The position numbers and the translations under genes are program-made. DNA of 64,000 bases from Pseudophaeobacter sp. EL27 (lineage in GTDB: Bacteria > Pseudomonadota > Alphaproteobacteria > Rhodobacterales > Rhodobacteraceae). Under the pieces are notes generated by a model. The model was not told the origin of the DNA. It saw nothing but the letters and a program-made list of their open reading frames with translations, and made no database searches. Shown piece after piece: positions 9,912 through 30,816 of the stretch (position 1 is its first letter; each line of letters opens with the position of its first letter). Where the stretch lies: contig NZ_OMPQ01000013.1 in the NCBI RefSeq assembly GCF_900313025.1, positions 186,001-250,000 on the forward strand, given 5' to 3'.

Positions 9912-10001
9912 TGCCACAGACTGTTTGGCAGGACACCACGTGCCACAGCGAAGGTCCGAAGGCGAGTTGGCGGAGTGGTGACGTAGCGGATTGCAAATCC
10001 G
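9912..10001 (+). repeat. Left island boundary repeat (tRNA-Cys promoter and 5' half)
   Basis: Direct repeat of 30691-30783. The upstream 35 bases (9912-9946) match 30691-30725 at 30 of 35 positions, including the shared TGGCAGGACACCAC. After a spacer of 14 versus 17 bases, the tRNA part (9961-10001) matches at 40 of 41. Similarity stops sharply just after the anticodon stem. Confidence 0.85.
9961..10001 (+). pseudogene. Truncated tRNA-Cys remnant
   Basis: Carries the acceptor 5' strand GGCGAGT, the D arm, and an anticodon arm with loop TTGCAAA (anticodon GCA, Cys). No T arm and no matching 3' acceptor strand follow, so it cannot fold as a tRNA. It is the 5' half of the intact tRNA-Cys at 30743. 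Confidence 0.88.
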
Positions 10002-10324
10002 AGTTCAACCCCTCGAATTTACAGCCGAATTTATGTGCTCAAGCCCTTGGACAAATCGGGAACCAAACGTGAAAGTGTGGTTAAACTCACCCGCATGTCA
10101 CCCTTCTTTCTCACATCAATTTGAGGGGTGATTTTTACTCCAAAACTACCCTGCTAGTTCCAGGTGTTTTTAGTTTTAGTAGTGCTACGATAGGCCCACT
10201 CGACCCAAAATCTCAAAGGCACGGCAACCAATTGAGGGGGGCTTTCAAAAACTTGCCGAGCATTGTTGCCGGACTTTTCACGATGCACCCGACCTAGGAA
10301 AAAGCGTTCAAGCCGCCGCTTCAT
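10002..10324. other. Intergenic stretch, no gene seen
   Basis: Follows the broken tRNA and ends at the acyl-CoA synthetase stop. It holds two similar short motifs, CAATTTGAGGGGTGA and CAATTGAGGGGGGC, about 100 bases apart, but no coding frame with a plausible start and no clear terminator. Confidence 0.5.
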
Positions 10325-11971
10325 TTAGACGGCTGGCGTGTTCGCTTGTTCACGCAGAGCAAACTTCTGGATCTTGCCGGTTGATGTCCGAGGGATTGGG
10401 GCGAAGACGAAACGGCTCGGCACTTTGTAATGGGCAAGATGCTCGCGGCACCAAGTTTGCAACTCAGGTGCATCCGCCGTTTGGCCTGCCGCAAGTTCGA
10501 CAAAGGCGCAGGGTGTTTCGCCCCATTTCTCATGTGACATGGCCACAACTGCAACGACTTCGACAGCGGGGTGGCGATAGAGCGCTTCTTCGACTTCGAT
10601 GGAAGAGATGTTCTCTCCTCCGGAAATGATCACATCTTTTGAGCGGTCCTTGAGCTGGATATAGCCATCAGGGTGGATCACGCCCAAGTCGCCTGAGTGG
10701 AACCAGCCCCCCGCAAAGGCTTTCTCGGTGGCGATCGGGTTACGGAAGTACCCTTTCATCACGACGTTGCCGCGGAACATGACTTCGCCCATGGTTTGGC
10801 CGTCGCGTGGAACCGGCATCATTGTATCCGAGTCAAGAACGTCGAGGTTTTCCAGCGGCAGGTAGCGCACACCTTGGCGCGACTTGAGAGCGGCTTGCTT
10901 AGCTGGCGGCAGATCAGACCAGCTGTCATGCCAGTCGTTGACGACAGCGGGGCCGTAGGTTTCTGTCAGCCCATAAAGGTGTGTCACGTCAAAGCCCGCA
11001 GTTTTCATGTCAGCAAGAAGCTTTTCGGGCGGCGGCGCGGCGGCTGTGAAAAACTGGACGGTTTTGTTGAGTGTGCGCTTGACCTCGTTAGGGGCGGAGA
11101 TCATCAGGGACATCACGATGGGTGCGCCGCACAGATGTGTTACGCCCTCATCAGCCAGAGCGTTCCAGATCGGCTCGGCGCGGACATGGCGCAGGCAAAC
11201 ATGTGTTCCGATGATGGCAGAGAGTGTCCAAGGGAAACACCAGCCGTTGCAATGGAACATCGGCAAGGTCCACAAGTAGACCGCGTGTTTTTGCATCGAG
11301 ACGGTAAGCGCGTTGCCCTGTGCCAAAAGATATGCGCCGCGATGGTGCGAGACGACGCCCTTGGGATCACCCGTGGTGCCCGAGGTGTAGTTGACCGAGA
11401 TCGCATCCCATTCATCAAGCGGCATGAGCCAGTTGAACGCGGCATCCCCCTGAGAAAGGAAGGCCTCGTAGTCTGTGGCCTCGGGCTGTTTCAGAACAGT
11501 GCCGTCAAACTCGGGGTCGTCATACTGGATCAGCACGGGGCGCACCGTGGCCAAGGCCAGCGCCTCTTGCATCAGCGGCATGAACTCGCGATCAACGATC
11601 ACCAGTTTGCTCATCGCGTGGTCGAGTTGAAAGGCGATAATCGCCGCATCAAGGCGTGTGTTGATCGAGTGAAGCACAGCGCCGCACATCGGTACGCCGT
11701 AATGGCACTCAAGCATCGCGGGCGTGTTTGCGAGCATGACCGAGACTGTGTCTCCGCGCCCCAGGTTTTGTTCCGAGAGCGCATGTGCGAGCTGCCGGGA
11801 GCGCGCGTAGAACTCGGCATATGTGCGCTTTAGCGCGCCGTGGCTGATGGCCGTGTGTTCGGGGAAGACGCTGGCGGCCCGCTCAAGGAACGTTAGCGGT
11901 GTGAGCGGCTGGTGGTTGGCTTCGGTGCGCTCCAGGCCCTTATTGTAAGGATTTTCCATGTTCTCTCTCAC
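10325..11971 (-). CDS. AMP-forming acyl-CoA synthetase
   Basis: Activates a carboxylic acid with ATP and CoA through an acyl-adenylate. At 548 residues it is normal for the ANL superfamily. The P-loop-like core NYTSGTTGDPKGVVSHHRG, the A5-type LYGLTETYGP, the hinge motif YIQLKDRSKDVIISGGENIS and the terminal catalytic-lysine region RTSTGKIQK are all complete. The likely start is GTG, overlapping the crotonase stop by four bases (GTGA); an ATG lies 12 bases downstream. It is the last gene of an operon with a DmdA-like protein, suggesting the demethylated acid is its substrate. In the DMSP pathway this role belongs to DmdB, but equivalence is inference, so no symbol is given. Confidence 0.9.
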   Translation of the reverse strand: MRENMENPYNKGLERTEANHQPLTPLTFLERAASVFPEHTAISHGALKRTYAEFYARSRQLAHALSEQNLGRGDTVSVMLANTPAMLECHYGVPMCGAVLHSINTRLDAAIIAFQLDHAMSKLVIVDREFMPLMQEALALATVRPVLIQYDDPEFDGTVLKQPEATDYEAFLSQGDAAFNWLMPLDEWDAISVNYTSGTTGDPKGVVSHHRGAYLLAQGNALTVSMQKHAVYLWTLPMFHCNGWCFPWTLSAIIGTHVCLRHVRAEPIWNALADEGVTHLCGAPIVMSLMISAPNEVKRTLNKTVQFFTAAAPPPEKLLADMKTAGFDVTHLYGLTETYGPAVVNDWHDSWSDLPPAKQAALKSRQGVRYLPLENLDVLDSDTMMPVPRDGQTMGEVMFRGNVVMKGYFRNPIATEKAFAGGWFHSGDLGVIHPDGYIQLKDRSKDVIISGGENISSIEVEEALYRHPAVEVVAVVAMSHEKWGETPCAFVELAAGQTADAPELQTWCREHLAHYKVPSRFVFAPIPRTSTGKIQKFALREQANTPAV

Positions 11972-12762
11972 TTGTCTTGCCAGAGGGGTGCGCGTTTATC
12001 GATGAACGCGCCGATGCCTTCTTCGGCGTCGCGGGCCAGCATGTTGTCGACCATTACGCCAGAGGCGTAAGTGTAAGCGTCAGCCAAGGGCATCCCTCGC
12101 TGTGCGTAGAAGGCCTGTTTGCCTGTGGCCAGTGTCATGCTTGATTTTGAGGCAAGCTTGGCTGCCATCTCCTGGGTCGCGGTTTGCAGCTGGTCAGCGG
12201 GCACAACGCGGTTGATCAGGCCGATCTCGGCGGCGCGCAGAGCTGACGTCATGTCGCCCGTCAACAGCATTTCCATCGCGTGTTTGTTGGCTACGTTGCG
12301 CGAGAGGGCAACCATCGGCGTGGAACAGAACAGACCGATGTGCACGCCTGGTGTGCTGAACTGTGCACTGTCGGCGGCGATGGCGAGATCGCAGCTGGCG
12401 ACCAGCTGACAGCCCGCCGCCGTAGCCACGCCTGTGACCTCGGCGATCACTGGCTTGTCGCAGGTTACGATGGCTTGCATGACACCCGAGCACATCTCCA
12501 TGACCGAAGCAAAATAGGCCTTGCCGCCATCAGCGGCGGTGCGGCCTGCTGTCATTTCCTTTAGATCATGCCCCGCGCAAAACGCAGGACCATTGGCCGC
12601 GAGGATGATGACGCGAACCGAGGGATCACATCCCACCTCTTTGAATGCGCCTCCAAGAGTGGCAAGCATTGCCTCAGAGAGCGCATTGCGGCGCCCGACA
12701 TCATTGAGCGTCAGCCGCAGAATGCCGGTTTCATCAAGATCACGGAGTAAAATATCGGTCAT
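11968..12762 (-). CDS. Crotonase-fold (enoyl-CoA hydratase/isomerase family) protein
   Basis: 264 residues with the crotonase fold. The oxyanion-hole segment FCAGHDLKEM and the second one VTGVATAAGCQLVASCDLA are present. The two glutamates that hydrate enoyl-CoA in classical members are absent: the first position reads Gln (AAGCQLVAS, usually GGGCELA) and the second Gly (STPGVHIGL, usually xPEVxLG). The overall look is that of the ECHDC3-like subgroup, whose reaction is not settled. It sits between OsmC and the acyl-CoA synthetase in the same operon, so it probably acts on the CoA thioester made there, but simple hydration is unlikely. It overlaps the downstream gene by four bases. Confidence 0.88.
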   Translation of the reverse strand: MTDILLRDLDETGILRLTLNDVGRRNALSEAMLATLGGAFKEVGCDPSVRVIILAANGPAFCAGHDLKEMTAGRTAADGGKAYFASVMEMCSGVMQAIVTCDKPVIAEVTGVATAAGCQLVASCDLAIAADSAQFSTPGVHIGLFCSTPMVALSRNVANKHAMEMLLTGDMTSALRAAEIGLINRVVPADQLQTATQEMAAKLASKSSMTLATGKQAFYAQRGMPLADAYTYASGVMVDNMLARDAEEGIGAFIDKRAPLWQDK

Positions 12763-12776
12763 AGCTCGGTCCTTTC

Positions 12777-13226
12777 TCAGAGGATGTTGATCTCGACACT
12801 GTCGGCGAGAGTGTTGGCGATAAAGCAGTAACGGTGCGCACGATCCTGCATTTCGGCCAAGTCTTCGTCGGAAACAGAGAACCCAGTGTCAAAGCGCACA
12901 ACAGGGTGCAGGTCGATGCGGGTGACAGACATCTGACCTTTTGGGTTTTTGCCCAGATGCGCTTCGGCGTAGTCGTGATAGCTCGCGACCGGCCAGCCCG
13001 ATTTGGCGGCGAGCGCAAGGAACGTCATCATGTGGCAGCTTGACAGCGCCGATCCGAGTGCCTGTTCGGGGTTCGTATTGCACGGGTCTCCGCCCCAATC
13101 GGGGGCGGAATCCACCTGAACATCGTAGGTGTTGTTGAACCGCACGGTGTGCTCGTTAGAATAGGCTCCGGTTTTGAACTCGGTCGCGGTGCGCTGCCAA
13201 TGCAGCTCGATGGCGAGATCGGACAT
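12777..13226 (-). CDS. OsmC/Ohr-family protein
   Basis: 149 residues when started at MSDLAIELHWQ, which follows an AAAGGAAG ribosome-binding site; the open frame extends 25 codons upstream into the end of the DmdA-like gene without support. Both redox cysteines of the OsmC family are present, in ALSSCHMMTFL and in AHRYCFIAN. Known members reduce organic hydroperoxides or related sulfur compounds using these thiols. It lies 25 bases after the DmdA-like gene and 14 before the crotonase gene. Inference: it handles a reactive thiol, peroxide or sulfur intermediate of the pathway. Confidence 0.88.
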   Translation of the reverse strand: MSDLAIELHWQRTATEFKTGAYSNEHTVRFNNTYDVQVDSAPDWGGDPCNTNPEQALGSALSSCHMMTFLALAAKSGWPVASYHDYAEAHLGKNPKGQMSVTRIDLHPVVRFDTGFSVSDEDLAEMQDRAHRYCFIANTLADSVEINIL

Positions 13227-13251
13227 GTGTTTGCTTCCTTTCAGGCGCCGC

Positions 13252-14394
13252 TCACGAGGCCGCGATTTGTTTTTTGGGGTCATGGAACGGGCGTTCGACA
13301 ATGGTGGCGCGTCGCGGTCCCAAGCCCGTCATCACGTCAAACTGGGTTCCGATGTCCGAGGCCTCGATTGAAACCAGAGCCAGTGCGATGTTCTTGACCA
13401 GGCGGGGGGAGTAGACGGCTGACGTCACATTGCCAATCTCGACGCCGTCTTTTGTGGCGACCCAAAACGTCGTGTTCGGGCGTTTAAGTGGCGCGCCATT
13501 GATAACAACACCGACCTGTTTACGTGACACGCCCGCGTCTTTGATTTTGCGCAGGGCTTCTTTGCCGATGAAGTCGGCTTTGATGTCGAGGTTAACCAGT
13601 CGGTCAAGGCCCAGCTCGTAGGGGTTGGTCTGGATATTGGCATCGGCGTGATAGGACAGCATACCACCTTCGATCCGACGGATGGTCGAGGTGTGGCCAG
13701 CTTGAATGCCAAATCGCTCACCCGCTGTCATGATCTTCTCCCACAGCTCGTCGCCGCGCGTACTGTCACGCAAGTACAGCTCATATCCCAGCTCGCTTGA
13801 CCAGCCTGTACGCGAGACGATGAGGGGAATGCCGTCAAGGTCATATTCGCGAAACCAGTAGTACTTGAGGTCGGCGATATCATCCCCAAGCAGCGCTTTC
13901 ATGATGTCGCCAGAGCGTGGCCCTTGAAGTTGAAGCGGCGAGACATCAGGCTCATGAATAGCGACATCCAGACCCGCGTGAATGGCAACGCCCTGCGCCC
14001 AGAGCAAAATGTCGCTGTCGGCCAGAGAAATCCAAAAGTGGTTTTCGGCCAAGCGAAGCAGAATAGGATCGTTCAGAATCCCGCCATCGGCATTGGTGAT
14101 CAGGATGTATTTGCACTGACCGACAGCCATCTTTGAAAGGTCACGGCAGGTCAGCAGTTGCATGAATTGAGCCGCGTCCGGACCCGTGATTTCAACCTGG
14201 CGCTCGACCGCAACATCACAGAGGATCGCGCTGTGCACAAGGTTCCAGAAGTTCTGGACCGGGTCACCAAAGTCGCGCGGGATATACATGTGGTTGTAAA
14301 CGGAAAAACCTGTCGCGCCCCAGCGAACAGTCGCGTCAAAATACGGAGACTTGCGGATTTGTGTGCCGAAGCCAAAGTCGTCAGTTTGTGTCAT
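13252..14394 (-). CDS. DmdA-like GcvT-family aminomethyltransferase/demethylase
   Basis: 380 residues, the full length of the GcvT/DmdA group of folate-dependent methyl- or aminomethyltransferases. Shared with DMSP demethylase (DmdA) are the N-terminal FSVYNHMYIPRDF, the DVAVERQVEITGPDA block, and EPDVSPLQLQGPRS. Segments that are well conserved in DmdA differ: SRTGWSSELGYELYL instead of an ARSGWSKQGG-type motif, and STIRRIEGGMLSYHAD instead of an NNIERVESGLLSYG-type motif. The family transfers a one-carbon group to tetrahydrofolate. A second member in this window (54165-55286) is closer to DmdA. It is the first enzyme gene after an Lrp regulator. The substrate could be DMSP, another sulfonium or a methylated amine. 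Confidence 0.82.
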   Translation of the reverse strand: MTQTDDFGFGTQIRKSPYFDATVRWGATGFSVYNHMYIPRDFGDPVQNFWNLVHSAILCDVAVERQVEITGPDAAQFMQLLTCRDLSKMAVGQCKYILITNADGGILNDPILLRLAENHFWISLADSDILLWAQGVAIHAGLDVAIHEPDVSPLQLQGPRSGDIMKALLGDDIADLKYYWFREYDLDGIPLIVSRTGWSSELGYELYLRDSTRGDELWEKIMTAGERFGIQAGHTSTIRRIEGGMLSYHADANIQTNPYELGLDRLVNLDIKADFIGKEALRKIKDAGVSRKQVGVVINGAPLKRPNTTFWVATKDGVEIGNVTSAVYSPRLVKNIALALVSIEASDIGTQFDVMTGLGPRRATIVERPFHDPKKQIAAS

Positions 14395-14552
14395 GTGGTT
14401 TCCCTCTCATGCCTGCAACCAAGGGCTGCGGCGATATTGAACTGGAGGGATTTGTAGCGCCGAGATTGCGCCGAGATGGACTAAAACTGAGAGGGCAATC
14501 AGACCGATCAGACCATTGTCAGCGTTTGGCCGGACCGTTTGGTCGGCTGAGG

Positions 14553-15044
14553 CTAGTTTGCGGGGTTGGTGGCCAGCTTTGCCAGATTCGGGTGTGCGGA
14601 TTTCACCTGCCGCGTCACTATGTAGGTCATGTAACGTTCCACCCCTAGCTCAGCAGATAAAAGAGTTTCCATCAGGATCTGAAAGGCGGCCAACGTTGGC
14701 GTGTGTATCTTCAGGACATAGTCCATGCCGCCGCCTGTTGCGATACACTCGGTGATCTCATCGACCTCGGCGATATAGGACTCAAAGCGGTCAAAGTCAG
14801 ATTTCCGATGCTGGGTGAGCGCCAGGGTCACCACGACCTGTGTAAAGCTTCCGATGCGGCTCAACACGATATCAGCATGATACCCACGTATGAAGCCCGC
14901 CGCTTTGAGCTTGTCCAGCCTTACCCAGCACGGCGTAGGTGACAGGTTTACAATCTCGGCAAGTTTGGTCTTGCTGATCTGGCCGTTCTGTTGGATCGCA
15001 CTGAGAATGCGAAGGTCGGTTGCATCAAGGCTGAACTTGCTCAT
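14553..15044 (-). CDS. Lrp/AsnC-family transcriptional regulator
   Basis: 163 residues from MSKFSLDATDLRIL, the normal Lrp start; 19 extra upstream codons are not family-like. The N-terminal winged helix-turn-helix covers about 1-60 (DLRILSAIQQNGQISKTKLAEI, then LSPTPCWVRLDKLKAAGFI). The C-terminal AsnC effector-binding domain covers about 70-150. It is transcribed toward the DmdA-like gene with a 158-base gap, so it probably controls that operon and itself in response to a small molecule, by family analogy an amino acid or related compound. The same pairing of Lrp and DmdA-like genes recurs at 53579-55286. Confidence 0.9.
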   Translation of the reverse strand: MSKFSLDATDLRILSAIQQNGQISKTKLAEIVNLSPTPCWVRLDKLKAAGFIRGYHADIVLSRIGSFTQVVVTLALTQHRKSDFDRFESYIAEVDEITECIATGGGMDYVLKIHTPTLAAFQILMETLLSAELGVERYMTYIVTRQVKSAHPNLAKLATNPAN

Positions 15045-15524
15045 CCGTTCAATCTTTCGCTCTATTGAAACATGACTGCGCCCAACACAACTCGGTGGCA
15101 ACCCACTACCTCTGAACAGATATCAGGTGCTTTTCCTGATGGGCCGATCACAAAAGGTTCGCTTTTGCAGTTGCGACACAACTTGCTACCGAAGCGGCGG
15201 ATGCCCGCTTTCCTGCCGAAGTACGTCGAAAAGGGGCAGTGCATTGGTCAAATTGGGCTCACAGCCGCCGTTCTCAGCACCAGCACACCAGATTGGCACT
15301 GTGGACGGAGATCAAGGTCTGCTGAGCGGACACAGCTGCCGTTGATTTCGGACTTTCCACCGTCCGCTTTGAAGCAGCAACGCTTATGAAGCCTATATCG
15401 TGAATGGTCTTAGCAAGCAGACGATTGCATCGATTCCACCCATGGCATCCCATCTGCACTGAAGCATGATATAATGAAATCGAGACAGGGTTTCTTCTTC
15501 ATCGAAGTATTCAAGTTGAGGGAA
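15045..15524. other. Decayed non-coding zone
   Basis: No credible gene. It contains the first copy of a degenerate repeat (about 15253-15340). Several short frames exist but lack ribosome-binding sites and family resemblance. Confidence 0.5.
15253..15340 (+). repeat. Degenerate dispersed repeat, copy A
   Basis: Shares GGGCTCACAGCYGCCGTTC, then GGAGATCAAGGTC and AGCGGAC, at similar spacing with copy B at 16368-16450. The copies are clearly diverged. Function unknown. Confidence 0.55.
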
Positions 15525-15991: not shown

Positions 15992-16291
15992 CTATTTATC
16001 TTTAGCCAGTCGTATCGCTTGAACCATACACATGCCGTGAAATGTACCTTGTCCGTCTGCGAGCATGGCTAGGTTTGCGCGTTTCTCAGAGTTCGCAGAC
16101 GCAAGGTCCTTCTGCCCTTTAGCCGAGAGCCTATCAACCATGCACTCGGCTAAGAAAACGTTCTGCTTCGGCGTCATGTCCTTCCTAGATAGAAATTCGA
16201 CATAGTTTTCCACAGCGCCCTGCTCGACTGAACCAGCACTGACCGGCAGGGAATTCAGAAAGAGGAAGCTTACTAGTGTAAAGAAACGCAT
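15992..16291 (-). CDS. Small secreted hypothetical protein
   Basis: 99 residues with a typical signal peptide (MRFFTLVSFLFLNSLPVSAG) and a mature part of about 80 residues. The mature part is charged and contains two cysteines (LAECMVDRL and HGMCMVQAI) that could pair in the periplasm. A GAAGG precedes the ATG by about ten bases. Base composition is lower in GC than the flanking operons, as for its neighbour at 16559, which suggests foreign origin. No family is recognised. Confidence 0.6.
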   Translation of the reverse strand: MRFFTLVSFLFLNSLPVSAGSVEQGAVENYVEFLSRKDMTPKQNVFLAECMVDRLSAKGQKDLASANSEKRANLAMLADGQGTFHGMCMVQAIRLAKDK

Positions 16292-16367
16292 TAAGTATGA
16301 ACCTTCATTTATGGTCTGTGCAGAACCAGATTACTAAAACTCTGCACGACGCAGTAATCGACCCTTC

Positions 16368-16450
16368 GGGCTCACAGCTGCCGTTCGCCGCGCAAGCATA
16401 CCAAACTGACACTGAGACCGGAGATCAAGGTCGGCTTAGCGGACTTAACA
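16368..16450 (+). repeat. Degenerate dispersed repeat, copy B
   Basis: Second copy of the repeat at 15253-15340. It is followed at about 16494 by TTCAACAAACGGTCGTTTTTG, which recurs with one change at about 17170; the inner AAACG-N-CGTTT is palindromic. Confidence 0.55.
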
Positions 16451-16558
16451 GACATCCACTGCGCGTAAGTAAATGTCTGGTTTGGGAAACCGTTCAACAA
16501 ACGGTCGTTTTTGGAATAGGCATGTTAAGGCCGAAAGTTTGTCGGCCTACTGCCTTGC

Positions 16559-17023
16559 TCACACGGTTTTTGTACTAGCTTGCTTTTGCCTAACCTTTAC
16601 CTGAGCAGGAAAGACAAATCCTAGTCCAGCCAAGGCTCCAAAGGCTGTAAGAGCGAGCCCTTGGTATGTGAAGACAACATAGTTTCTCTCGCCTTCTTGC
16701 ATGAGGTCAGAGATACCTAAAGTAGCAACTAGTGCGTTAGCATTTATGCTCTCTGAGAGAACATACAGAGGCAGTAATAACACAAGTGATTTACCCGATA
16801 TTCTTAATGCCCGTTTATATGGCATAGGCTCTTCAGTGGTCTTCATATACGTTGATATTAAGGGGAAGGCGGCCAACAAAATTATGGTTGGATGAGCTTT
16901 GAATACCAGCTCTAAAAAGTTGCCATAACCAATTTTTGGGAGGAAAAATACAGCAAGTGCGATAAGCAACCAAAGCGATACAGCTATCCCTACAAATACT
17001 ATTAGTATCTTCGAATCTTTCAC
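16559..17023 (-). CDS. Hypothetical integral membrane protein
   Basis: 154 residues with about four hydrophobic segments: near 7-29 (ILIVFVGIAVSLWLLIALA), 40-58 (HPTIILLAAFPLIS), 77-95 (GKSLVLLLPLYVLS) and 120-140 (GLALTAFGALAGLGFVF). It has a short basic C-terminal tail. The ATG (MKDSKILIVF) follows an AGGGTGAAA element. GC content is visibly below that of the neighbouring operons. No family is recognised. Its position in a decayed part of the island suggests horizontally acquired cargo of unknown use. Confidence 0.6.
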   Translation of the reverse strand: MKDSKILIVFVGIAVSLWLLIALAVFFLPKIGYGNFLELVFKAHPTIILLAAFPLISTYMKTTEEPMPYKRALRISGKSLVLLLPLYVLSESINANALVATLGISDLMQEGERNYVVFTYQGLALTAFGALAGLGFVFPAQVKVRQKQASTKTV

Positions 17024-17777: not shown

Positions 17778-17978
17778 CTACATCGTCAGACCTCTAGCCT
17801 CGGCAAGACCATCACTATCAGTCATTGAACAGCAAACGCTGGCCAAAGTGCGCGGTTGTTCATAGGGCCAGGGCGTTCCTCGATGCATTGTGGCACGCTG
17901 ATCCCAGACTAATACATCGCCAACCTGCCAAGTGTGGGAATAGAGGACCCGGCAATATGCGCGGCTTGTCCGTGAATG
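17778..17978 (-). pseudogene. C-terminal fragment of a TauD/TfdA-type dioxygenase
   Basis: The fragment reads YSHTWQVGDVLVWDQRATMH, followed by RGTPWPYEQPRTLASVCC, and ends at a natural stop. This is the C-terminal part of 2-oxoglutarate/Fe(II) dioxygenases, containing the distal metal-binding His (ATMHRG) and the 2-oxoglutarate-binding Arg (PRTL). The N-terminal two thirds, including the HxD motif, are missing. Similarity ends abruptly where an integrase fragment begins on the other strand (17980), so an insertion or deletion cut the gene. Confidence 0.75.
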
Positions 17979-22846: not shown

Positions 22847-22865
22847 AGATCGTTACAGAAGCAGA

Positions 22866-24143
22866 TTAGTAGTTAGATTTGATCTGAACGCAGGAGCTGG
22901 TTTCGGTGTTGTACATACCGCAGCCCAGTTCTTTCCAGTCGGACTTCAGAACAGCAGATGCTGGCAGGAAATCAGTCCAAGCATCGCCCGGAACCTCAGT
23001 GGTCTTGGAGATGATATCGAACTGACCATCTGCTTGGATTTCGCCAATCAGAACCGGTTTCGCCAGGTGGTGGTTTGGCAGCATAACCGCTGTACCACCT
23101 GTTAGGTTCGGGAACTCTTGACCGTACATCGCTGTGCGCACTGCATCGACGTCCGCAGTACCGGCTTCTTCAACCGCATTTACCCACATGTTGAACCCGA
23201 TAAAGTGAGCTTCCATTGGGTCGTTGGTCACACGCTCTTCACCTGCAAAGGCTTTCCATGCATCGATGAATTCCGCGTTCACATCAGATTCTGCAGACTG
23301 GAAGTAGTTCCAAGCCGCGAGGTGACCCTCAAGGTTGGCGGTGTCCAGACCGGATAGCTCTTCTTCACCTACAGAGAAGGCAACCACTGGGATATCATCC
23401 GCAGAAATACCGGCTGCAGCCAGTTCCTTGTAGAAGCCGATGTTTGCATCGCCATTGATGGTCGAGATCACACCAACGGATTTACCGTCTTCACCAAGGG
23501 CCACAACGTCAGCAACGATCGTCGCCCAGTCAGAGTGACCAAACGGAGTGTAATTCACAAAGATATCGTCTTTCGCGATGCCATTGTCTTGCAGGTATTG
23601 TTCCAGAATGTTGTTGGTAGTCCGTGGGTACACATAGTCTGTGCCCAGCAGAGCGAACTTTTCAACGCCTAGCTCTTCTAGGAAGTAATCTACTGCAGGG
23701 ATCGCCTGTTGGTTCGGCGCGGCACCTGTGTAGAACACGTTCTTGGAGGACTCTTCGCCTTCGTATTGAACAGGGTAGAACAACAAGCCATTCAGTTCTT
23801 CAAGAACTGGCAGGGCAGATTTACGGGACACGGATGTCCAAGACCCAAAGATAACGTCTACTTTGGACACAGTCAGCAGCTCGCGTGCTTTTTCTGCAAA
23901 CAGCGGCCAGTCAGACGCTGGGTCCACAACCACAGCTTCAAGGTCACAGCCCAGAACGCCACCCTTGGCGTTTTGTTGATCCACCAGCATCAGCATGGTG
24001 TCTTTCAACGTGGTTTCAGAGATTGCCATGGTGCCAGACAGCGAGTGCAGAACGCCGACCTTAACAGTACAGTCAGCAGCCATCGCCGCAGAACCAGCAA
24101 TCGTCAGAGCGGCAGCGCTGGTTAAGGTTTTTGCGAATTTCAT
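22866..24143 (-). CDS. urtA: Urea ABC transporter substrate-binding protein UrtA
   Basis: 425 residues from MKFAKTLTSAAALTIAG, a signal peptide cleaved near AMAADC. An AGGAG lies eight bases before this ATG; another ATG directly upstream is also possible. The open frame runs 41 codons further, unsupported. The mature protein is an Fpr/LivJ-type binding protein starting KVGVLHSLSGTMAISETTLK, with LFYPVQYEGEESSKNVFYTG, both typical of UrtA. It captures urea in the periplasm and delivers it to UrtBC. It is transcribed divergently from the urease genes. Confidence 0.95.
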   Translation of the reverse strand: MKFAKTLTSAAALTIAGSAAMAADCTVKVGVLHSLSGTMAISETTLKDTMLMLVDQQNAKGGVLGCDLEAVVVDPASDWPLFAEKARELLTVSKVDVIFGSWTSVSRKSALPVLEELNGLLFYPVQYEGEESSKNVFYTGAAPNQQAIPAVDYFLEELGVEKFALLGTDYVYPRTTNNILEQYLQDNGIAKDDIFVNYTPFGHSDWATIVADVVALGEDGKSVGVISTINGDANIGFYKELAAAGISADDIPVVAFSVGEEELSGLDTANLEGHLAAWNYFQSAESDVNAEFIDAWKAFAGEERVTNDPMEAHFIGFNMWVNAVEEAGTADVDAVRTAMYGQEFPNLTGGTAVMLPNHHLAKPVLIGEIQADGQFDIISKTTEVPGDAWTDFLPASAVLKSDWKELGCGMYNTETSSCVQIKSNY

Positions 24144-24495
24144 CATATTAACTCCTCGCGGAGCGCCCGCCGCATTGCGCGAAAGCGCGCAAACGCGTAG
24201 CAAGGTCTCCGCAACGTTTGTTGCATTTCGTGTGGCGGTCTCTCCGAGGTCCAATCGATTGGCCGTCACACTCCCAGTATCCCCAAACGAGCATGAAGCC
24301 CGAGATCAGGTGGTCTTATGAAGGTCGCTGAATTGGCTTGCTTCAACTTTTCAGGCCAAAACGTTGTTCCTTTTGAGGGTGGTGTTTAATTTTTTATCAA
24401 AATTACCCGCACTCGCCCAATTTTCTGGCATTCACGCATGCTGCAATGCCGAATTTTCACGCGAAGTGGTCACTTCCTGACATATTTGACCAAGG
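24144..24495. promoter_or_regulatory. Divergent control region between urtA and ureD
   Basis: 352 bases without a gene, AT-richer near 24380-24440, serving both the transport and urease operons. A TGGCA-like motif near 24430 resembles half of a sigma-54 promoter but the second element has the wrong spacing. No clear NtrC site was recognised. Confidence 0.45.
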
Positions 24496-25356
24496 ATGCA
24501 GCAGAACTGTTTTGGGAATCACACCATAATCACTGCTGCCACATATAAAGCCGAGACTGCGATCGGACCCGTGCCACGTACAAAGGGCGCATTAACGCTT
24601 TCTTCAAAGTTCGTGGAAGGTCGCAGCCGTATTGACCGTTTTCGAACCTCGGGCGCGATGAAGGCGTTGTTCCCACGCGCCGAAGATCTGCAGGCCATTC
24701 TGATTAATACGTCTGGTGGCCTCACGGGGGGCGATCAGATCGACATCGTGGCCAGTGCCCGTGCTGGCAGTTCGTTGACGTTAACGACCCAAGCAGCAGA
24801 GCGTGCCTATCGTGCTCAAGATGGCCGCGCTCGGATGACAACTGACCTGCAGATTGAAACGGATGCGCAGATAAATTGGCTCCCACAAGAAATGATCCTG
24901 TTTGAAGGATCGGCTTTGGATCGTGGGCTGACCGTGGATCTTGCAGAAGGCGCGGGCTTTTTGATGGTCGAACCGATCATCTTTGGACGCACTGCCATGG
25001 GGGAAACCCTAACTGAGGTTTCGTTCAAAGATCGCGTCCGAGTGAACCGCAGTGGCCATGCGCTGTACTGGGACGGACTCGATCTAAACGGCGATACAAT
25101 GAAACATCTTGCACGGCGGGCAATCGCTGGCGGGGCAAGGGCCATGGTGAGCCTTGTCTATGTCGCCCCAGATGCAGAGGCGCACTTAGATGCCATCCGA
25201 CGCTATCTGCCTGACACAGGAGGGGCGAGCCTTCTAGCCCCGGATCTTTTGACACTTCGCATGGTCGCCGCTGACAACTTTGAGCTGCGTCGCGCCCTCA
25301 TTCCTATTCTAGAGCGGTTGACCAAAGACCAGCTCCCAACCTCTTGGAGACTTTGA
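24496..25356 (+). CDS. ureD: Urease accessory protein UreD
   Basis: 286 residues. Family features are the early RSRIDRFRTSGAMKALFPR, followed by NTSGGLTGGDQIDI and LTLTTQAAERAYR, then the WLPQEMILFEGSAL region. UreD (UreH) forms the UreD-UreF-UreG chaperone complex on apo-urease that delivers nickel. The start is uncertain: the AAGG sits directly on this ATG, and the recognisable family sequence begins only about 30 residues in. First gene of the urease operon, four bases before ureA. Confidence 0.92.
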   Translation: MQQNCFGNHTIITAATYKAETAIGPVPRTKGALTLSSKFVEGRSRIDRFRTSGAMKALFPRAEDLQAILINTSGGLTGGDQIDIVASARAGSSLTLTTQAAERAYRAQDGRARMTTDLQIETDAQINWLPQEMILFEGSALDRGLTVDLAEGAGFLMVEPIIFGRTAMGETLTEVSFKDRVRVNRSGHALYWDGLDLNGDTMKHLARRAIAGGARAMVSLVYVAPDAEAHLDAIRRYLPDTGGASLLAPDLLTLRMVAADNFELRRALIPILERLTKDQLPTSWRL

Positions 25357-25359
25357 CCC

Positions 25360-25662
25360 ATGAACCTGACCCCGAGAGAAAAAGACAAGCTGATGGTGGC
25401 CATGGCCGCTGAAGTTGCCCGCAAACGTCTGGCGCGCGGCGTTAAGCTTAATCATCCTGAAGCGATTGCCCTAATCACCGACGCCGTTGTTGAAGGTGCG
25501 CGCGATGGGCGATCCGTTTCAGACATGATGCAGGCGGGGGCTGAAGTCGTCAGCCGTGACCAATGCATGGCTGGCATCGCCGACATGATCCACGAGGTGC
25601 AAGTCGAAGCAACCTTCCCAGATGGCACCAAGCTTGTCACCGTCCATAACCCAATTCGCTAA
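25360..25662 (+). CDS. ureA: Urease gamma subunit
   Basis: 100 residues, the normal size of a separate gamma subunit. The sequence starts [20 protein letters not shown] and contains [13 protein letters not shown] and [18 protein letters not shown], all diagnostic. It assembles with UreB and UreC into the (alpha-beta-gamma) trimeric enzyme that hydrolyses urea to ammonia and carbamate in the cytoplasm. It is followed by a small gene and then ureB. Confidence 0.97.
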
Positions 25663-25673
25663 GGAGATATCTC

Positions 25674-25862
25674 ATGAAATCCGTTGTAAAATTTGCATCC
25701 GTACTGCTGCTGACCGCAACGCCATCTTTGGCGCATGAAGGCCTTCATATGCACCCACATGGTTCCGGAAACTGGATCGCTGGGGCCGCGTTGATCGGCA
25801 CGTGTTTAATTATCGCTGCCGCCAACCATTTGATCCGCAAACCTGCGAAGCAGCGGTCATGA
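25674..25862 (+). CDS. Small histidine-rich membrane protein within the urease operon
   Basis: 62 residues. A signal peptide ([20 protein letters not shown]) is followed directly by [14 protein letters not shown], with four histidines in ten residues, then one membrane helix ([19 protein letters not shown]) and a basic cytoplasmic tail. An AAGGAGATATCTC ribosome-binding region precedes the ATG, and the stop overlaps the ureB ATG (ATGA), so it is a real, coupled gene. The exposed His cluster after the signal peptide recalls the N-terminus of HupE/UreJ nickel transporters, but the protein is far too short to be one. Inference: a periplasmic-facing nickel-binding helper. Confidence 0.75.
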
Positions 25863-26164
25863 TCCCGGGAGAGGTATTTGCTGCCCAAGGCGAGTTGGTT
25901 CTGAACGAAGGGCCTGAGGCGATCACATTGATGGTTGCCAACACCGGCGATCGCCCCGTGCAGGTCGGCAGCCACTACCATTTTGCTGAGACAAATCCAG
26001 GTTTGGAGTTCGACCGTGTCGCTGCATACGGCATGCGTCTGGACATCGCCGCTGGGACCGCTGTGCGTTTTGAACCAGGCCAACGCCGCGAAGTACAACT
26101 GATCCCAATTTCCGGCGCTCGCAAAGTCTTTGGGTTTAATCAAAAAGTTATGGGGGCGCTCTAA
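25859..26164 (+). CDS. ureB: Urease beta subunit
   Basis: 101 residues from [18 protein letters not shown], the standard start of UreB; the open frame extends upstream but through the preceding small gene. Visible are [20 protein letters not shown] and the C-terminal [14 protein letters not shown]. It is a structural subunit of urease. The start overlaps the small His-rich gene by four bases, and its stop overlaps the ureC ATG by one base. Confidence 0.96.
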
Positions 26165-27876
26165 TGCCAGCAACCATCAAACGATCCGATTATGCGGCAA
26201 TGTTTGGACCAACAGTGGGTGACAAGGTCCGCTTGGCAGACACTGATTTGATCATCGAAGTCGAACGCGACCTGACCGGCCCTTACGGGGAAGAAGTGAA
26301 ATTTGGTGGCGGGAAAGTCATCCGAGATGGCATGGGCCAAGCTCAGACCACGCGTGCAGAAGGGGCCGTTGATACCGTCATCACCAATGCGCTGATCGTG
26401 GATCATACCGGCGTTTTTAAAGCTGACATCGGGCTGCGCGACGGGCGCATTCACAAGATCGGTAAAGCTGGCAACCCAGACACGCAACCGGGAGTGAATA
26501 TCATCGTTGGCCCCGGCACCGAAGCCATTGCTGGCGAAGGTCGCATTCTGACAGCCGGTGGTTTTGACAGCCACATCCACTTCATTTGTCCACAGCAGAT
26601 CGAAGACGCATTGCACTCGGGTCTTACCACCATGCTGGGCGGAGGCACCGGGCCAGCGCATGGCACTTTGGCCACCACCTGTACCCCCGGTGCTTGGCAC
26701 ATTGGCCGCATGATGCAGGCGGCAGATGCCTTCCCGATGAACCTGGCCTTTGCGGGCAAAGGCAACGCTTCGCTGCCCGCCGCTTTGGAAGAACAGATTA
26801 AGGCCGGCGCCTGCGCGATGAAGCTGCATGAAGACTGGGGCACCACGCCTGCGGCGATTGACTGCTGTCTCTCTGTTGCAGACGCCATGGATGTGCAGGT
26901 GATGATCCATACGGACACGTTGAACGAGTCTGGTTTTGTGGAAAACACAGTCGCTGCCATGAAGGGCCGCACCATTCACGCCTTCCACACCGAAGGGGCT
27001 GGTGGTGGTCACGCGCCAGACATCATCAAAATCTGCGGCGAAGAACATGTATTGCCGTCGTCAACAAACCCAACGCGTCCCTTCACGGTCAACACTATTG
27101 AAGAGCATTTGGACATGTTGATGGTTTGCCACCACTTGGACAAATCAATCCCAGAGGACGTGGCCTTTGCAGAAAGCCGTATCCGGCGCGAAACCATCGC
27201 GGCTGAGGATATCCTGCATGACATGGGCGCGTTTTCGATCATCGCGTCAGACAGCCAAGCCATGGGCCGCGTTGGCGAGGTGCTGATCCGCACCTGGCAA
27301 ACCGCTGATAAAATGAAGAAACAGCGTGGGCGTTTGGCAGAGGAGACGGGAGACAATGATAACTTCCGTGTTCGCCGCTATGTTGCGAAATACACGATCA
27401 ATCCGGCCATTGCGCATGGGCTGAGCCAGGAAATTGGCTCTGTCGAGGAAGGCAAACGCGCGGATCTGGTATTGTGGGACCCTGCCTTCTTTGGCGTAAA
27501 GCCAGAGATGGTCTTGCTGGGCGGAACCATTGCCATGGCACAGATGGGGGATCCGAACGCGTCCATTCCGACGCCTCAGCCGGTTTATTCTCGTCCGATG
27601 TTTGGCGCTTATGGTCGTTCTTTGGAAAATTCTGCTGTGACCTTTGTGTCCGAAGCCGCACAGGCCGAGGGCATAGGTGACGCGCTGGGCCTTGCAAAAT
27701 CAACGCTTGCTGTGAGCAACACGCGCAACATTGGCAAGTCCGATCTAAAGCTGAACACCGCCACCCCAAAGGTCGAAGTGAACCCCGAAACCTATGAAGT
27801 CCGCGCAGACGGCGAATTGCTGACCTGCCAGCCGGCGACAGAGCTGCCGATGGCGCAGCGCTACTTTTTATACTGA
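26164..27876 (+). CDS. ureC: Urease alpha (catalytic) subunit
   Basis: 570 residues, full length. All nickel-site elements are present: the two histidines in [14 protein letters not shown], the carbamylated lysine in [10 protein letters not shown], histidines in MIHTDT and in [10 protein letters not shown], the active-site flap [20 protein letters not shown], and the metal-ligand Asp in [11 protein letters not shown]. The enzyme should be active once nickel is loaded by UreDEFG. It is the core of the ureDAB-C-E-F-G operon. Confidence 0.98.
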
Positions 27877-27881
27877 GGTTT

Positions 27882-28364
27882 ATGATCATGTTGCCACTGG
27901 CTCAATCCCTGCACCGGCATTCCCATGCAGATCACTTTGATACAGTCACCCTGTCTTATGGCGGGCGGTTTTTGCGACGCAAGCGTTTGGAAACGGACGG
28001 TGGGACATCCTTTGTCATTGATCTTGAGAAAACAGAGTCTTTGGATCAGGGTGATGCCTTGGAACTGTCAGATGGTCGTTTGATTGAAGTGCGTGCCGCA
28101 TCAGAAGAGGTATTGGTTGTTACTGGAAATAACCTGCCGCGTCTGGCGTGGCACATCGGCAATCGCCACACGCCGTGTCAGATTGAGGCCAGTCGGCTAT
28201 TGATCCAAAATGATCCGGTGATCAAGCACATGCTCGCGCATCTCGGTGCTCAGGTGGCCGAGGCGGTGGAGCCCTTTACGCCAGAAGGCGGGGCTTATGG
28301 GCATGGTCGGACCCATTCGCATGAACACGGCCATTCCGCACATGATCATTCCCATGTTGAGTAA
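27882..28364 (+). CDS. ureE: Urease accessory nickel metallochaperone UreE
   Basis: 160 residues. The N-terminal part matches the UreE peptide-binding domain (about 1-75), and the C-terminal domain ends in a histidine-rich tail ([20 protein letters not shown]) that binds nickel. It donates Ni to UreG. The last 11 bases overlap the start of ureF. Confidence 0.93.
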   Translation: MIMLPLAQSLHRHSHADHFDTVTLSYGGRFLRRKRLETDGGTSFVIDLEKTESLDQGDALELSDGRLIEVRAASEEVLVVTGNNLPRLAWHIGNRHTPCQIEASRLLIQNDPVIKHMLAHLGAQVAEAVEPFTPEGGAYGHGRTHSHEHGHSAHDHSHVE

Positions 28365-29001
28365 CGCAAAGCTCCTAACATTAACGCAATGGCTGTCACC
28401 AGCGTTTCCTCTCGGGTCATTTGCCTATTCGCATGGATTAGAGCAGGCGATCCACAGTGGTTGGATTGCCGGGCCTTCTGATCTGCAAGACTGGCTTGAG
28501 GTTATTCTGCGACACGGATCTGCACATTCTGACGCTGTTTGGATTCGTTTGGCGCATGACGCTGAAACCGCAGCAGAGATCGAACAGATGAACACTCAAT
28601 GTCGCGCCTATGCAGCGTCGTTTGAACGTCTGCGGGAAGCGGAACGGCAAGGGCAGGCCTTTGCGCGCGTGGTGTCCGAAGTCTGGTCGCTCACGTTACC
28701 CGCCTTGCAACTCCCTATCGCGCTGGGCCGGGCGGCGCGTTTGTCTGAACTGCCGATAGACCTGGTTGTCACCCTCTACCTGCAGGCCTTTCTGGGCAAT
28801 CTCGTTTCAGCAGCTCAGCGATTGATGCCCTTGGGGCAGACGGATGCACAGGCCATTCTGTCGCGCCTGAATATGGATTACATTGAGATCTCGGCGCAGA
28901 CTGTGCAGCAAGGCTTGGACGATATCTCTTCCAGCGCTTTTCTCTCTGACATCGCGGCCATGCGCCACGAAACGCTTCAACCAAGGATATTTCAATCATG
29001 A
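28354..29001 (+). CDS. ureF: Urease accessory protein UreF
   Basis: 215 residues from [19 protein letters not shown], the usual UreF opening; the frame extends upstream only inside ureE. Also visible are [14 protein letters not shown] and [20 protein letters not shown]. UreF bridges UreD and UreG in the activation complex and gates GTP hydrolysis by UreG. It overlaps both ureE (11 bases) and ureG (four bases), so the three are translated together. Confidence 0.94.
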
Positions 29002-29612
29002 CCCAAATGAATGGCCCGCTGCGTGTTGGGATTGGCGGCCCGGTTGGCGCAGGCAAAACCACTTTGACCGCGCGTCTGTCTGAGGCATTGAAGGATCAGC
29101 ATTCGATTGGTGTGATCACCAATGACATTTACACGCAGGAAGATGCAGAGGCGTTGATGCGCATGCAAATTCTGCCGCAAGATCGAATTATCGGTGTGGA
29201 AACAGGCGGTTGCCCTCACACGGCCATCCGCGAGGATGCATCGATTAACCTTGCAGCGGTGGCTGAGATGCAGGAGCGCCACTCGGATATCGAGATAATT
29301 CTTATTGAAAGCGGCGGTGACAACCTCTCTGCGACCTTCAGCCCGGAACTCGCCGATCTGACGATCTATGTAATTGACGTGGCTGCAGGAGAAGAAATTC
29401 CTCGGAAGGGCGGGCCAGCGCTCACGCGGTCAGATATTCTGGTGATTAACAAGATCGATCTGGCCCCGCATGTGGGCGCATCTTTAGAGGTCATGCAAAC
29501 AGATGCCAAAACGACGCGCGAGCAGCGCCCATTTGTCTTTGCAAACCTTAAGCAGGGCGAGGGCGTTGAGGATATCCTTTCTCATTTGAAGAACATCTCC
29601 GGGTTGGTCTAG
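28998..29612 (+). CDS. ureG: Urease accessory GTPase UreG
   Basis: 204 residues. The P-loop is [15 protein letters not shown], followed by [15 protein letters not shown]. The metal-binding Cys-Pro-His lies in [15 protein letters not shown], and the switch II and guanine motifs are [18 protein letters not shown] and [13 protein letters not shown]. It hydrolyses GTP while handing nickel to urease. Last gene of the operon. Confidence 0.97.
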
Positions 29613-29987: not shown

Positions 29988-30686
29988 GTGCGCTTCTCGG
30001 CCCGCTGTTTCTTGCTGTTGTACTATTTCCGACTGGGGCGCCTCGAGCGCCGCTTTGCCTCCGATGGGATCAACAGCCTTAGCGTGGATTCGATTGAGAG
30101 AGAGCCTTGGCCGCCCAAACTGATAGAGATCTTTCGGAACGCATACCCTTTTCAAACGCGCGAACGCATGTTGTTCGAACTGATGCTTGGGACCGGCCAA
30201 CGGATCGGAGACTGTCTTGAAATGCACTGGTCCCATCTGGTCGGGTCTGACATCTGGGTAAAGCAAAACAAGACCAAGAAAAGCCTTTTGATCCCCGTCA
30301 CCAGGGAGCTATCAGAGGCCTTAAGCGTCCACCGAGCGATTTGGGATGCAGCCGAAACGGATCACAAGGGGTTGTTCATCCTTCAAAAGGACATGACCAA
30401 AACAAAGCAGCCCGGCCCCTGGGCCTATCGTGGCGCTGCAGAGGCTAAGCGAGAAGCCCGAAAACAGGTCGGCGCCCAGAAATTCGACAACCATGCTATT
30501 CGCTATACAGCAGCAACCGAACTACTCAGAGCGGGCTGTAGCGATGAACAAATTGCCGCCGTAACTGGTCAAAGTATCAAGATGGTTCAACACTATACGC
30601 GCGCTGAAAGACAGAAACTGAGAGCAAGGACTGCACAGGCAAAAAGAGCCACTTTGGGGGTTGCGCACACCCGCGAAGAAAATTAA
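29988..30686 (+). CDS. Tyrosine recombinase (integrase), N-terminally shortened
   Basis: 232 residues covering essentially the catalytic domain: Arg I in LGTGQRIGDCLEMHW, the beta-hairpin Lys region KQNKTKKSLLIPV, box II His-x-x-Arg in NHAIRYTAATELLR, and the nucleophile Tyr in VQHYTRAE. The second box II His (usually LGH) is Gln in VTGQS. Phage-type integrases are usually 350-420 residues, and the N-terminal DNA-binding domains are missing; the first 30 residues here look unrelated. It ends five bases before the tRNA-Cys repeat. It probably moved the island but is now likely defective. Confidence 0.8.
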   Translation: MRFSARCFLLLYYFRLGRLERRFASDGINSLSVDSIEREPWPPKLIEIFRNAYPFQTRERMLFELMLGTGQRIGDCLEMHWSHLVGSDIWVKQNKTKKSLLIPVTRELSEALSVHRAIWDAAETDHKGLFILQKDMTKTKQPGPWAYRGAAEAKREARKQVGAQKFDNHAIRYTAATELLRAGCSDEQIAAVTGQSIKMVQHYTRAERQKLRARTAQAKRATLGVAHTREEN

Positions 30687-30690
30687 AACG

Positions 30691-30783
30691 TGCGACAGAC
30701 AGTGTGGCAGGACACCACCCGCCACGGTTAAGTCTTTGAAAAGGCGAGTTGGCGGAGTGGTGACGCAGCGGATTGCAAATCCG
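30691..30783 (+). repeat. Right island boundary repeat
   Basis: Partner of 9912-10001: 30/35 identity upstream of the tRNA and 40/41 over the tRNA 5' half. It sits between the integrase stop and the anticodon arm of the intact tRNA-Cys. Confidence 0.85.
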
Positions 30784-30816
30784 CGTACACCGGTTCGATT
30801 CCGGTACTCGCCTCCA
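30743..30816 (+). tRNA. tRNA-Cys (GCA)
   Basis: Folds completely: acceptor GGCGAGT/ACTCGCC, anticodon stem GCGGA/TCCGC with loop TTGCAAA (anticodon GCA), T arm CCGG-TTCGATT-CCGG, discriminator T and encoded CCA. The only intact cysteine tRNA visible in the window. It serves as the right boundary of the island. Confidence 0.96.

Follow-up and report, generated by a model that had tools for sequence, protein, structure and literature searches.

Genetic elements that target tRNA genes nearly always carry the 3′ half of the gene, and the usual argument is that this is the safer arrangement, the host promoter being retained. One earlier study reportedly described an element providing the 5′ part of the gene that it targets, much as the element considered here would do. 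The ordinary 3′-carrying tRNA-Cys elements of the Rhodobacterales (e.g., those of genomes G007 and G006) belong to the same integrase family as the present element, use the same core and have an integrase facing the core, and in several cases their arm is homologous to that of 5′ carriers. They differ in bringing a 3′ half, so that the tRNA retains its upstream region. In Islander, 159 of 3,919 islands have a displaced 5′ tDNA fragment (PMC4383910). According to the part of that paper available to us, such islands combine an integrase gene, an intact tRNA gene and an upstream displaced 5′ fragment in the same orientation, as found here, and no integrase family is described there that, like the present one, serves a single tRNA and core with carriers of either half. 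The archaeal pTN3-like integrases have their attB in the 5′ half of a tRNA gene, and expression of the rebuilt tRNA comes from the element side (PMC8371274). In the available part of that source, they resemble the present case in their 5′-half target and in element-side expression (here putative), but are suicidal and split on integration, whereas the integrase gene here is adjacent to the site and stays outside it. Islands carrying a 5′ half are known but rare; for repeated switching between 5′ and 3′ carriage, no description was found in the literature searched.

The stretch of Pseudophaeobacter sp. EL27 DNA analyzed here (the window; 64,000 nt) contains a 20.8-kb segment that is very probably what is left of a tyrosine-integrase element inserted at the tRNA-Cys anticodon loop. 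The element would have brought its own promoter and 5′ half, would have met an older 3′-carrying element, and would belong to a family that switches sides. The features of the locus are as follows.

9073–9798, forward strand: CbiX-like gene in the left flank, beyond the element end (PF01903, E 1.2e-11; present in 12 of 12 genomes of the genus)
9870–9960, forward strand: leader of the left copy, probably the decayed arm of an older 5′-type element (resembles leaders of intact tRNA-Cys genes in congeners)
9961–10001, forward strand: displaced tRNA-Cys 5′ half (putative attL), core TTGCAAAT at 9991–9998 (40/41 to 30743–30783)
10002–10262, forward strand: left (P′) element arm with an arm-like motif at 10060–10079 (87% to the left end of G002 over 305 columns, half included)
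10325–15101, reverse strand: cargo, namely acyl-CoA synthetase, enoyl-CoA hydratase, OsmC-like, DmdA/GcvT-like and Lrp-type regulator genes (homologous block elsewhere in G010, G006 and G007)
18250–24269, reverse strand: cargo, urea ABC transporter (UrtE, UrtC and UrtA by NCBIfam; two others by position)
24496–29612, forward strand: cargo, urease cluster (UreC and UreG by NCBIfam; others by position)
about 30060–30686 (start 29988 at the widest), forward strand: integrase, catalytic part only (PF00589, model positions 144–329)
30661–30689, forward strand: promoter-like pair TTGCGC-17-TAAAAC (promoter scan; putative activity)
30729–30742, forward strand: tRNA-Cys 3′ trailer sequence in reverse complement, abutting the tRNA 5′ end (1 mismatch in 14)
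30743–30816, forward strand: sole complete tRNA-Cys (GCA; putative attR), core TTGCAAAT at 30773–30780 (ARAGORN, Rfam and genome search)
30863–30911, reverse strand: probable remnant arm of a 3′-carrying tRNA-Cys element (z 14.7 against the 3′-side arm of G007)

Direct alignment of the left tRNA-Cys 5′ half (9961–10001) with the right one (30743–30783) gave 40/41 identity, and only 12 of the 33 bases beyond were identical, so that identity ends sharply at the anticodon stem. ARAGORN and Rfam recognized the right copy only (30743–30816, anticodon GCA), which agrees with the original prediction of a repeated 5′ half (40/41), incomplete on the left and complete on the right. The two copies with their leaders lie 20.8 kb apart and are 82% similar across 99 aligned bases, 5′ half included. 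This upholds the predicted upstream similarity but not the figure given for it (30/35), as the best ungapped 35-mer upstream of the two copies matched at 28/35. When tRNA-Cys plus leader was used as a query against the whole 4.55-Mb genome, two good matches were obtained (E 2.7e-63 and 4.0e-21) and the next of the 18 matches had an E-value of 0.08; the right copy is the genome's sole complete tRNA-Cys. The locus has the signature of Islander-type islands: an intact tDNA with a displaced fragment of the same tDNA in shared orientation, the 5′ fragment (9961–10001) upstream of the intact gene (30743–30816) on the same strand, a truncated tyrosine integrase gene (PF00589) inside the interval, and an uninterrupted target in the relatives G007 and G005, though with a non-homologous spacer.

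In these two congeners, CbiX is followed by a single uninterrupted tRNA-Cys, about 170 bp away in G007 and about 860 bp away in G005. This is the arrangement that the original prediction had named as the empty site; relatives with both tRNA copies in the same gene order, together with the absence of this arrangement from every genome, would, on the same account, have pointed to an old duplication, and it was found in both, although their leader between CbiX and tRNA-Cys is non-homologous to that of the left copy in the window. A search for other duplicated 5′ halves, also proposed there, found them in G002 (whose intact tRNA and left half point in opposite directions) and G010; among 10 further genomes selected for a 5′-side integrase, 8 had a separate tRNA-Cys 5′-half fragment. 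An old tandem duplication of tRNA-Cys, with one copy truncated later and the intervening genes gained piecemeal, would account for the resemblance of the left leader and half to the right ones over about 99 bases, and the presence of the cargo operons elsewhere in congeners would suit it. Such a duplication is nonetheless highly improbable in view of the single tRNA-Cys beside CbiX in G007 and G005, the abrupt stop of identity at the anticodon stem, the independent 5′-half fragments in other genera, which end at tRNA base 40–43, and the viral contigs with an integrase plus a 5′ half only.

The gene inside the right repeat encodes a PF00589 integrase (E 1e-21), as predicted, but the gene is not intact: the match covers model positions 144–329 of about 330, i.e., the catalytic part only. 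About 140 N-terminal residues are absent, and no credible piece of them turned up in the window when the first 160 residues of two relatives served as tblastn queries (E limit 10). Judged by its sequence, this integrase is a truncated relic, and the full-length integrase expected of an active mobile element is lacking. At the other end, the left-arm motif (10060–10079) occurs at an equal distance of 56–58 nt in five other left ends or attP-like sites, the distance in the window being that in viral loci L277 and L278; of the 12 such ends or sites tested, 5 lacked the motif, which, like the trailer motif, was picked post hoc with the sequences already in view.

The flanks of the two copies suggest a layered history. 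The right flank (30863–30911) resembles the 3′-side arm of G007 (z 14.7). With such a likeness to the arm of 3′-carrying elements on its right, the tRNA-Cys 3′ half is probably not ancestral. The arm of the window's integrase showed only a weak likeness to 3′-side arms (best z 5.4). The simple reading, an element 5′ half joined to an ancestral 3′ half, was thus partly rejected; of the chimeric tRNA originally predicted, the element 5′ half stands, but the 3′ half is not clearly chromosomal. A displaced 3′ fragment of the proposed 3′-type element was absent from the genome in the whole-genome tRNA-Cys search. Nor does the left copy hold up as a plain ancestral 5′ end. Its leader was rejected as the ancestral promoter: it is similar to element arms, and a G007-like leader survives to the left of the half in G002. 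The similarity of the left leader to element arms therefore suggests more than one integration round. Points against the element reading are this non-ancestral leader and a window integrase that is both truncated and long-branched.

The −10-like hexamer of the promoter-like pair starts at the integrase stop codon, and tRNA-Cys may be driven by this element-side promoter (30661–30689). The promoter scan was run without a shuffle control, and in G010, G002 and G001 another pair ranked top, the TTGC-17-TA pair there being read by eye. In 7 of 12 genomes of the genus, the reverse-complemented trailer directly precedes tRNA-Cys and is likely a fossil of a switch from 3′ to 5′ carriage; in G001, G003 and G004, element arms are present and the trailer motif is absent (7–8 mismatches).

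The cargo operons of the window are also carried elsewhere in the genomes of congeners, and so the cargo need not have arrived with the integrase. Discordance with CbiX was seen for both UreC and the DmdA-like protein, which fits import. In a search for the ancestral urease site, two of the eight proteins called downstream of the G003 cluster had a counterpart: a close one for the first, in G008 alone, and a 40% match for the second, in G010. Chromosomal rearrangement or homologous recombination might instead have placed the repeats, in which case 9961–30816 would not be one element despite its element ends. Rearrangement is frequent at the locus, with tRNA-Cys and CbiX separated by 39 kb to 575 kb in three genomes (G003, G006 and G008), on separate contigs in two (G004 and G011), and inverted in G002; moreover, the integrase is broken, and no phage or conjugation genes were found among the cargo proteins given names. 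Even so, we consider this explanation unlikely, since both ends have the expected anatomy and orientation (a left arm, and an integrase facing the core) and the discordance of UreC and the DmdA-like protein fits import.

Evidence for an element carrying a 5′ half also comes from relatives. Among the first 23 of 80 viral loci examined, contigs L277 and L278 have an integrase followed by the 5′ half only (six mismatches to the 38-base pattern in L278), and L283 and L286 have the 3′ half only, giving two kinds of attP-like site; a 5′ half in a putatively unintegrated site was thus seen in the relatives L277 and L278. Known phage records yielded distant integrases only (four records, ≤34.5% identity). 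Some integrases were placed beside tRNA-Cys by a family-wide census, used for this purpose only, in which 376 of 394 genomes had a match among the matches listed, at most two candidates being scored per genome and fragments not being separated. Placed members of the family are mostly 3′-half carriers. In a tree confined to 98 side-labelled rows (14 5′ and 84 3′), which left out 22 unlabelled rows of an earlier tree as well as 16 "none" and 2 "other" loci and includes identical or near-identical rows of genomes reached twice (e.g., G010 = L170), the 5′ carriers were scattered and a single 5′ clade was rejected (p-AU 2.7e-61). Integrase-side arms are also common to some 5′ and 3′ carriers (z up to 16.2). 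A single origin of 5′ carriage, with the scatter as a long-branch artefact, is improbable: several 5′-side rows are indeed long-branched and the tree is partly unresolved, but one 5′ clade was still rejected (p-AU 9.5e-13) in a reduced tree of 31 rows, hand-picked with both earlier trees known, that excludes most long branches (the window, G246, G375, G292 and other long rows), and G100 (5′) and G005 (3′) have a common arm at z 16.2. Given the scatter and the shared arms, the family appears to have switched more than once between 3′ and 5′ carriage around the shared core TTGCAAAT.

Taken together, the uninterrupted genes of G007 and G005, the 5′ duplicates and the L277 and L278 sites largely support the original prediction of an element-borne replacement for the promoter and 5′ half. 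In the history that we propose, an ordinary 3′-carrying element would earlier have delivered the resident 3′ half, leaving only the arm at 30863–30911. A tyrosine-integrase element, whose attachment site would hold the tRNA-Cys 5′ half and upstream promoter between integrase and crossover, would have entered the only tRNA-Cys gene at its anticodon loop. The previous 5′ half would have been pushed to the left end (9961–10001), and the element's promoter and 5′ half would have been joined to the resident 3′ half to form the gene at 30743–30816. Both kinds of element would employ one integrase family recombining in the core TTGCAAAT, and the switch from 3′ to 5′ carriage would have occurred via GGCGAGT, the acceptor-stem sequence that opens both gene ends read inwards.

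Why carriage of the 3′ half is near-universal is an old puzzle, and a family that changes sides while keeping its core supplies natural replicates for it. With these one can test which event reverses the polarity of an attachment site, and how it is tolerated that an element takes over the promoter when an essential gene is present only once. With about even confidence, we propose that the near-palindromic tRNA-Cys anticodon loop (TTGCAA) is open to this integrase family from both sides and that acceptor-stem recombination has converted 3′-carrying sites to 5′-carrying ones. The tRNA-Cys gene would then be a two-sided docking site whose promoter and both halves are potentially element-borne, and in 10 of 12 Pseudophaeobacter-group species the sole tRNA-Cys would follow an upstream region derived from an element, a new promoter having arisen within the integrase arm. 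Even a tRNA gene that is intact may combine pieces of several elements, and its flanks are accordingly unsafe as chromosomal landmarks.

The duplication described in the original prediction was confirmed: the tRNA-Cys 5′ half is present at 9961-10001 and 30743-30783 (40/41 bases identical), after which the next 33 bases agree at 12/33. These repeats are the only two good tRNA-Cys matches in the whole genome, and the right copy alone is a tRNA gene. The predicted neighboring integrase was also found, as a tyrosine integrase gene adjoining the right copy with its C-terminus facing the tRNA. The protein consists of the catalytic part alone and keeps the columns R, H-x-x-R and Y (R205, H289, R292 and Y323 in the numbering of Pseudophaeobacter flagellatus MA21411-1, G010), which we take to be the catalytic residues.

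Among the 12 genomes of the genus (G000-G011, the window genome included), each has one tRNA-Cys apart from fragments, complete in 11 and cut by a contig end in G004, and all 12 have the CbiX gene that flanks the island on the left. An uninterrupted tRNA-Cys after CbiX, the arrangement proposed to define the empty site, was observed in Phaeobacter sp. 11ANDIMAR09 (G007, ~170 bp) and G005 (~860 bp), both without a 5′-half duplicate. Five other genomes yield no empty site because CbiX is far from tRNA-Cys (G003, G006, G008) or on a separate contig (G004, G011). Duplicates of the 5′ half occur beside CbiX in G000, G002 and G010, and 3′-half duplicates, the ordinary kind, in G003, G005, G006 and G007. 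The 5′-type fragments end at GGATTGCAAAT(C/T)CG, or at GGATTGCAAATCCC in G100, a genome from the wider family; 3′-type fragments begin as late as TTGCAAATCC, and both types share TTGCAAAT, which belongs to the anticodon loop. In G002 (L082 2674-12473), the intact tRNA-Cys, which has an integrase remnant, is oriented opposite to the 5′ half at the left, so this locus is partly inverted.

The region upstream of the working tRNA-Cys resembles the G010 integrase 3′ end, the element sequence beside the attachment site (the arm), or both in 10/12 genomes, the exceptions being G005 and G007; only the arm remains in G003. Because the left copy already bears such an arm in both the window and G010, more than one round of integration is indicated. 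The leader of G002's left half is of the G007 type instead. A scan without a shuffle control gave TTGCGA-17-TAGAAG, whose end lies 50-53 nt upstream of the tRNA, as the top-scoring −35/−10-like pair in G003, G004, G006, G008, G009 (Phaeobacter sp. CECT 5382) and G011; the same uncontrolled scan predicted TTGCGC-17-TAAAAC in the window, ending at −53 and with the second hexamer beginning at the stop codon of the integrase gene, and placed the end of the top pair at −11 to −19 in 5/7 displaced leaders of other genera. An archaeal recombinase review, which also describes pTN3-like 5′ sites, states that bacterial tRNA genes rebuilt by recombination almost always use the promoter they had originally (PMC8371274).

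Recombination with the tRNA 5′ region is described as considerably less frequent (PMC6563490, citing Zhao and Williams, 2002), and Islander reports 3,760 islands with 3′ fragments and 159 with 5′ fragments (PMC4383910). In a search whose coverage left out most subscription papers, no title or abstract opening dealt with integrases that change from one side of a tRNA to the other, or with islands at tRNA-Cys in Pseudophaeobacter. An integrase profile (A1) built from G010, G007, G006 and the window matched 72/394 family genomes at E ≤ 1e-45. In the first tree (58 rows), the 3′ half lies between integrase and core in 30 (3′ carriers) and the 5′ half in six (the window, G010, G375, G246, G270 and G100); no tRNA-Cys was placed near the other 22. 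The 80 named-record loci, which overlap genomes counted before (G010, G009, G007), comprised 54 of the 3′ side, eight of the 5′ side, 16 with none and two other. Since 5′ carriers served as seeds for every set, these proportions are not frequencies. Six loci (L195, L199, L212, L218, L220, L224) are a variant of the 3′-type islands, with the integrase ~2 kb inside and oriented like the intact tRNA-Cys, and the 3′ half 3.0-3.7 kb past it.

The proposed search for other duplicated 5′ halves gave more examples. Ten further genomes, picked for having a 5′-side integrase, included eight with a separate 5′-half fragment, spanning tRNA bases 1 or 2 to 41-43 in six, 1-40 in G100, and, shorter and weaker, 9-40 in G246 (E 2.4e-7). 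The fragment shares a contig with the intact tRNA-Cys in four (G433, G429, G100, G246) and is on another contig in four. No separate fragment was found in G270 or G432, the latter having a second full-length tRNA-Cys copy (89%). The 37.7-kb Pelagimonas region is a prophage, since it has terminase, portal, capsid, tape-measure and endolysin genes; the 10.1-kb G100 interval has terminase and portal. Examination of 23 of 80 viral loci revealed integrase, arm and 5′ half only in L277 and L278 and a 3′ half only in L283 and L286, half-only sites that resemble attP of either kind before integration. An intact tRNA was present in two loci in the 5′ arrangement and four in the 3′ arrangement, and 13/23 had no tRNA-Cys or half. 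The integrases of viral contigs L272, L273 and L274 are 57-58% identical to that of G010, with no tRNA-Cys half near the gene.

Phylogenetic analyses showed that the 58-row tree needs six changes for the 5′ label, at least four forced by starred branches, and that 98 labelled rows need seven, at least four forced. A single 5′ clade was rejected (p-AU 2.7e-61), also in a 31-row tree from which most long branches were left out (p-AU 9.5e-13; four changes, at least two forced); the clade around G010 alone gave p 0.014 against one 5′ clade. The window row sits on a long branch and is not securely placed. Evidence separate from the phylogeny comes from the arm that lies between the integrase and the tRNA half, which 5′ and 3′ carriers have in common in two groups. 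In the first, the 5′ carrier G100 shares its arm with 3′ carriers G005 (z 16.2), G258 (13.4), G012b (11.9) and G287 (10.2); in the second, 5′ carriers Salipiger (11.5), Pelagimonas (10.7), Sulfitobacter HI0040 (10.5) and G010 (10.1) share theirs with a 3′-carrying MAG (L177). G270 (best z 3.2), G375 (4.6) and the window (5.4) have little arm similarity across sides.

In 3′ elements, the last bases of the arm are the tRNA-Cys trailer in reverse complement (for example TAAGTCATTGAAAAGATT, followed by TGGAGGCGAGT). The same 14 trailer bases touch the 5′ end GGCGAGT in Pseudophaeobacter-type 5′ copies, with no mismatch in G010, G002 and G008, one in the window, G009 and G011, and three in G006 and Sulfitobacter HI0040. 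The motif was absent (6-9 mismatches) from all other copies tested, congeners G001, G003 and G004 included, and the other 5′ elements are without it. The forward trailer occurs within four mismatches in 96/149 distinct tRNA-Cys 3′ flanks of the loci analyzed, vs. 43/5000 random window 34-mers. Because both tRNA-Cys ends read GGCGAGT inwards on opposite strands (the acceptor stem), a single exchange there could flip the attachment side; it would convert a 3′ attachment site to a 5′ site and leave the reverse-complement trailer as a fossil. Alternatively, the trailer could have been retained as a binding site rather than as a fossil of the switch. In Salipiger, GCTAAACGC...ACCACATCG(G)AAC is present in the leader of the element as well as in the displaced one, a pattern that would fit capture of the host promoter along with the 5′ half.

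The window element has a GAACCAAACGTGAAAGTGTG motif at its left end (10060-10079). Among 12 left ends or attP-like sites, six (those of the window, G010, Salipiger, Sulfitobacter HI0040, L277 and L278) have such a motif at a distance of 56-58 nt from the half, and Thalassorhabdomicrobium has it at 92 nt; it was not found in the remaining five tested, and the background was 6/2000 random window 140-mers. The right flank (30863-30911) contains, as reverse complement, GAACAGAACAAAAACAGAATGTTTGGAC, the arm of 3′-carrying elements (E 1e-12 to 1.5e-7; z 14.7 for G007, 11.2 for Ruegeria, 10.9 for G006, 10.3 for L211, 7.6 for Mesobacterium and 4.0 for G258). This arm argues against the earlier view that the 3′ half is chromosomal and indicates that it was probably delivered by a 3′-type element whose integrase has since gone; no displaced 3′ fragment of such an element was found in the window genome. 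Two-sided arrangements are better preserved elsewhere: integrase genes or remnants flank the single tRNA-Cys on both sides in G006 and G008, and in Celeribacter naphthalenivorans tRNA halves lie on opposite sides, the 5′ one at 37 kb and the 3′ one at 19 kb.

The island carries DmdA/GcvT-like, acyl-CoA synthetase, enoyl-CoA hydratase, OsmC-like and Lrp-type genes, a urea transporter and urease. Its DmdA/GcvT-like protein scored 367.8 bits, under the 410-bit cut-off for DMSP demethylase; a second such gene outside the island (54165-55286, +), 44% identical, is also just under the cut-off. A match to Rfam RF02514 (5′ ureB sRNA; 133 bits) at 26319-26608 (−), antisense to the urease alpha gene, is probably conserved coding sequence, not an RNA gene. 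The G+C minimum of the window (50.3% at 16001-20000, vs. 63.2% at its left edge) is inside the island. The gene content differs in other islands at the site: G002 has a type I restriction system (HsdM, HsdS, HsdR) between its left 5′ half and intact tRNA-Cys, and the sole cargo of the 8-kb G010 island is an AraC-type regulator, small ORFs and a protein of 1387 aa containing Big and PKD domains (L081 5776-9939), possibly a surface protein. UreC was present in 10/12 genomes, located elsewhere in the nine besides the window genome, and missing in G002 and G005; a DmdA-like block is at another location in G010, G006 and G007. The window UreC is 89-90% identical to that of five congeners and 82% to that of G001, those of G003, G007, G008 and G010 being 94-97% identical among themselves, and its DmdA-like protein is 77-80% identical to those of three congeners, which share 84-92%. 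Since these identities are discordant with CbiX, for which the window is nearest G003, G004 and G007 (72-73%), the comparison favors import of the cargo, though not necessarily of all of it in one element.
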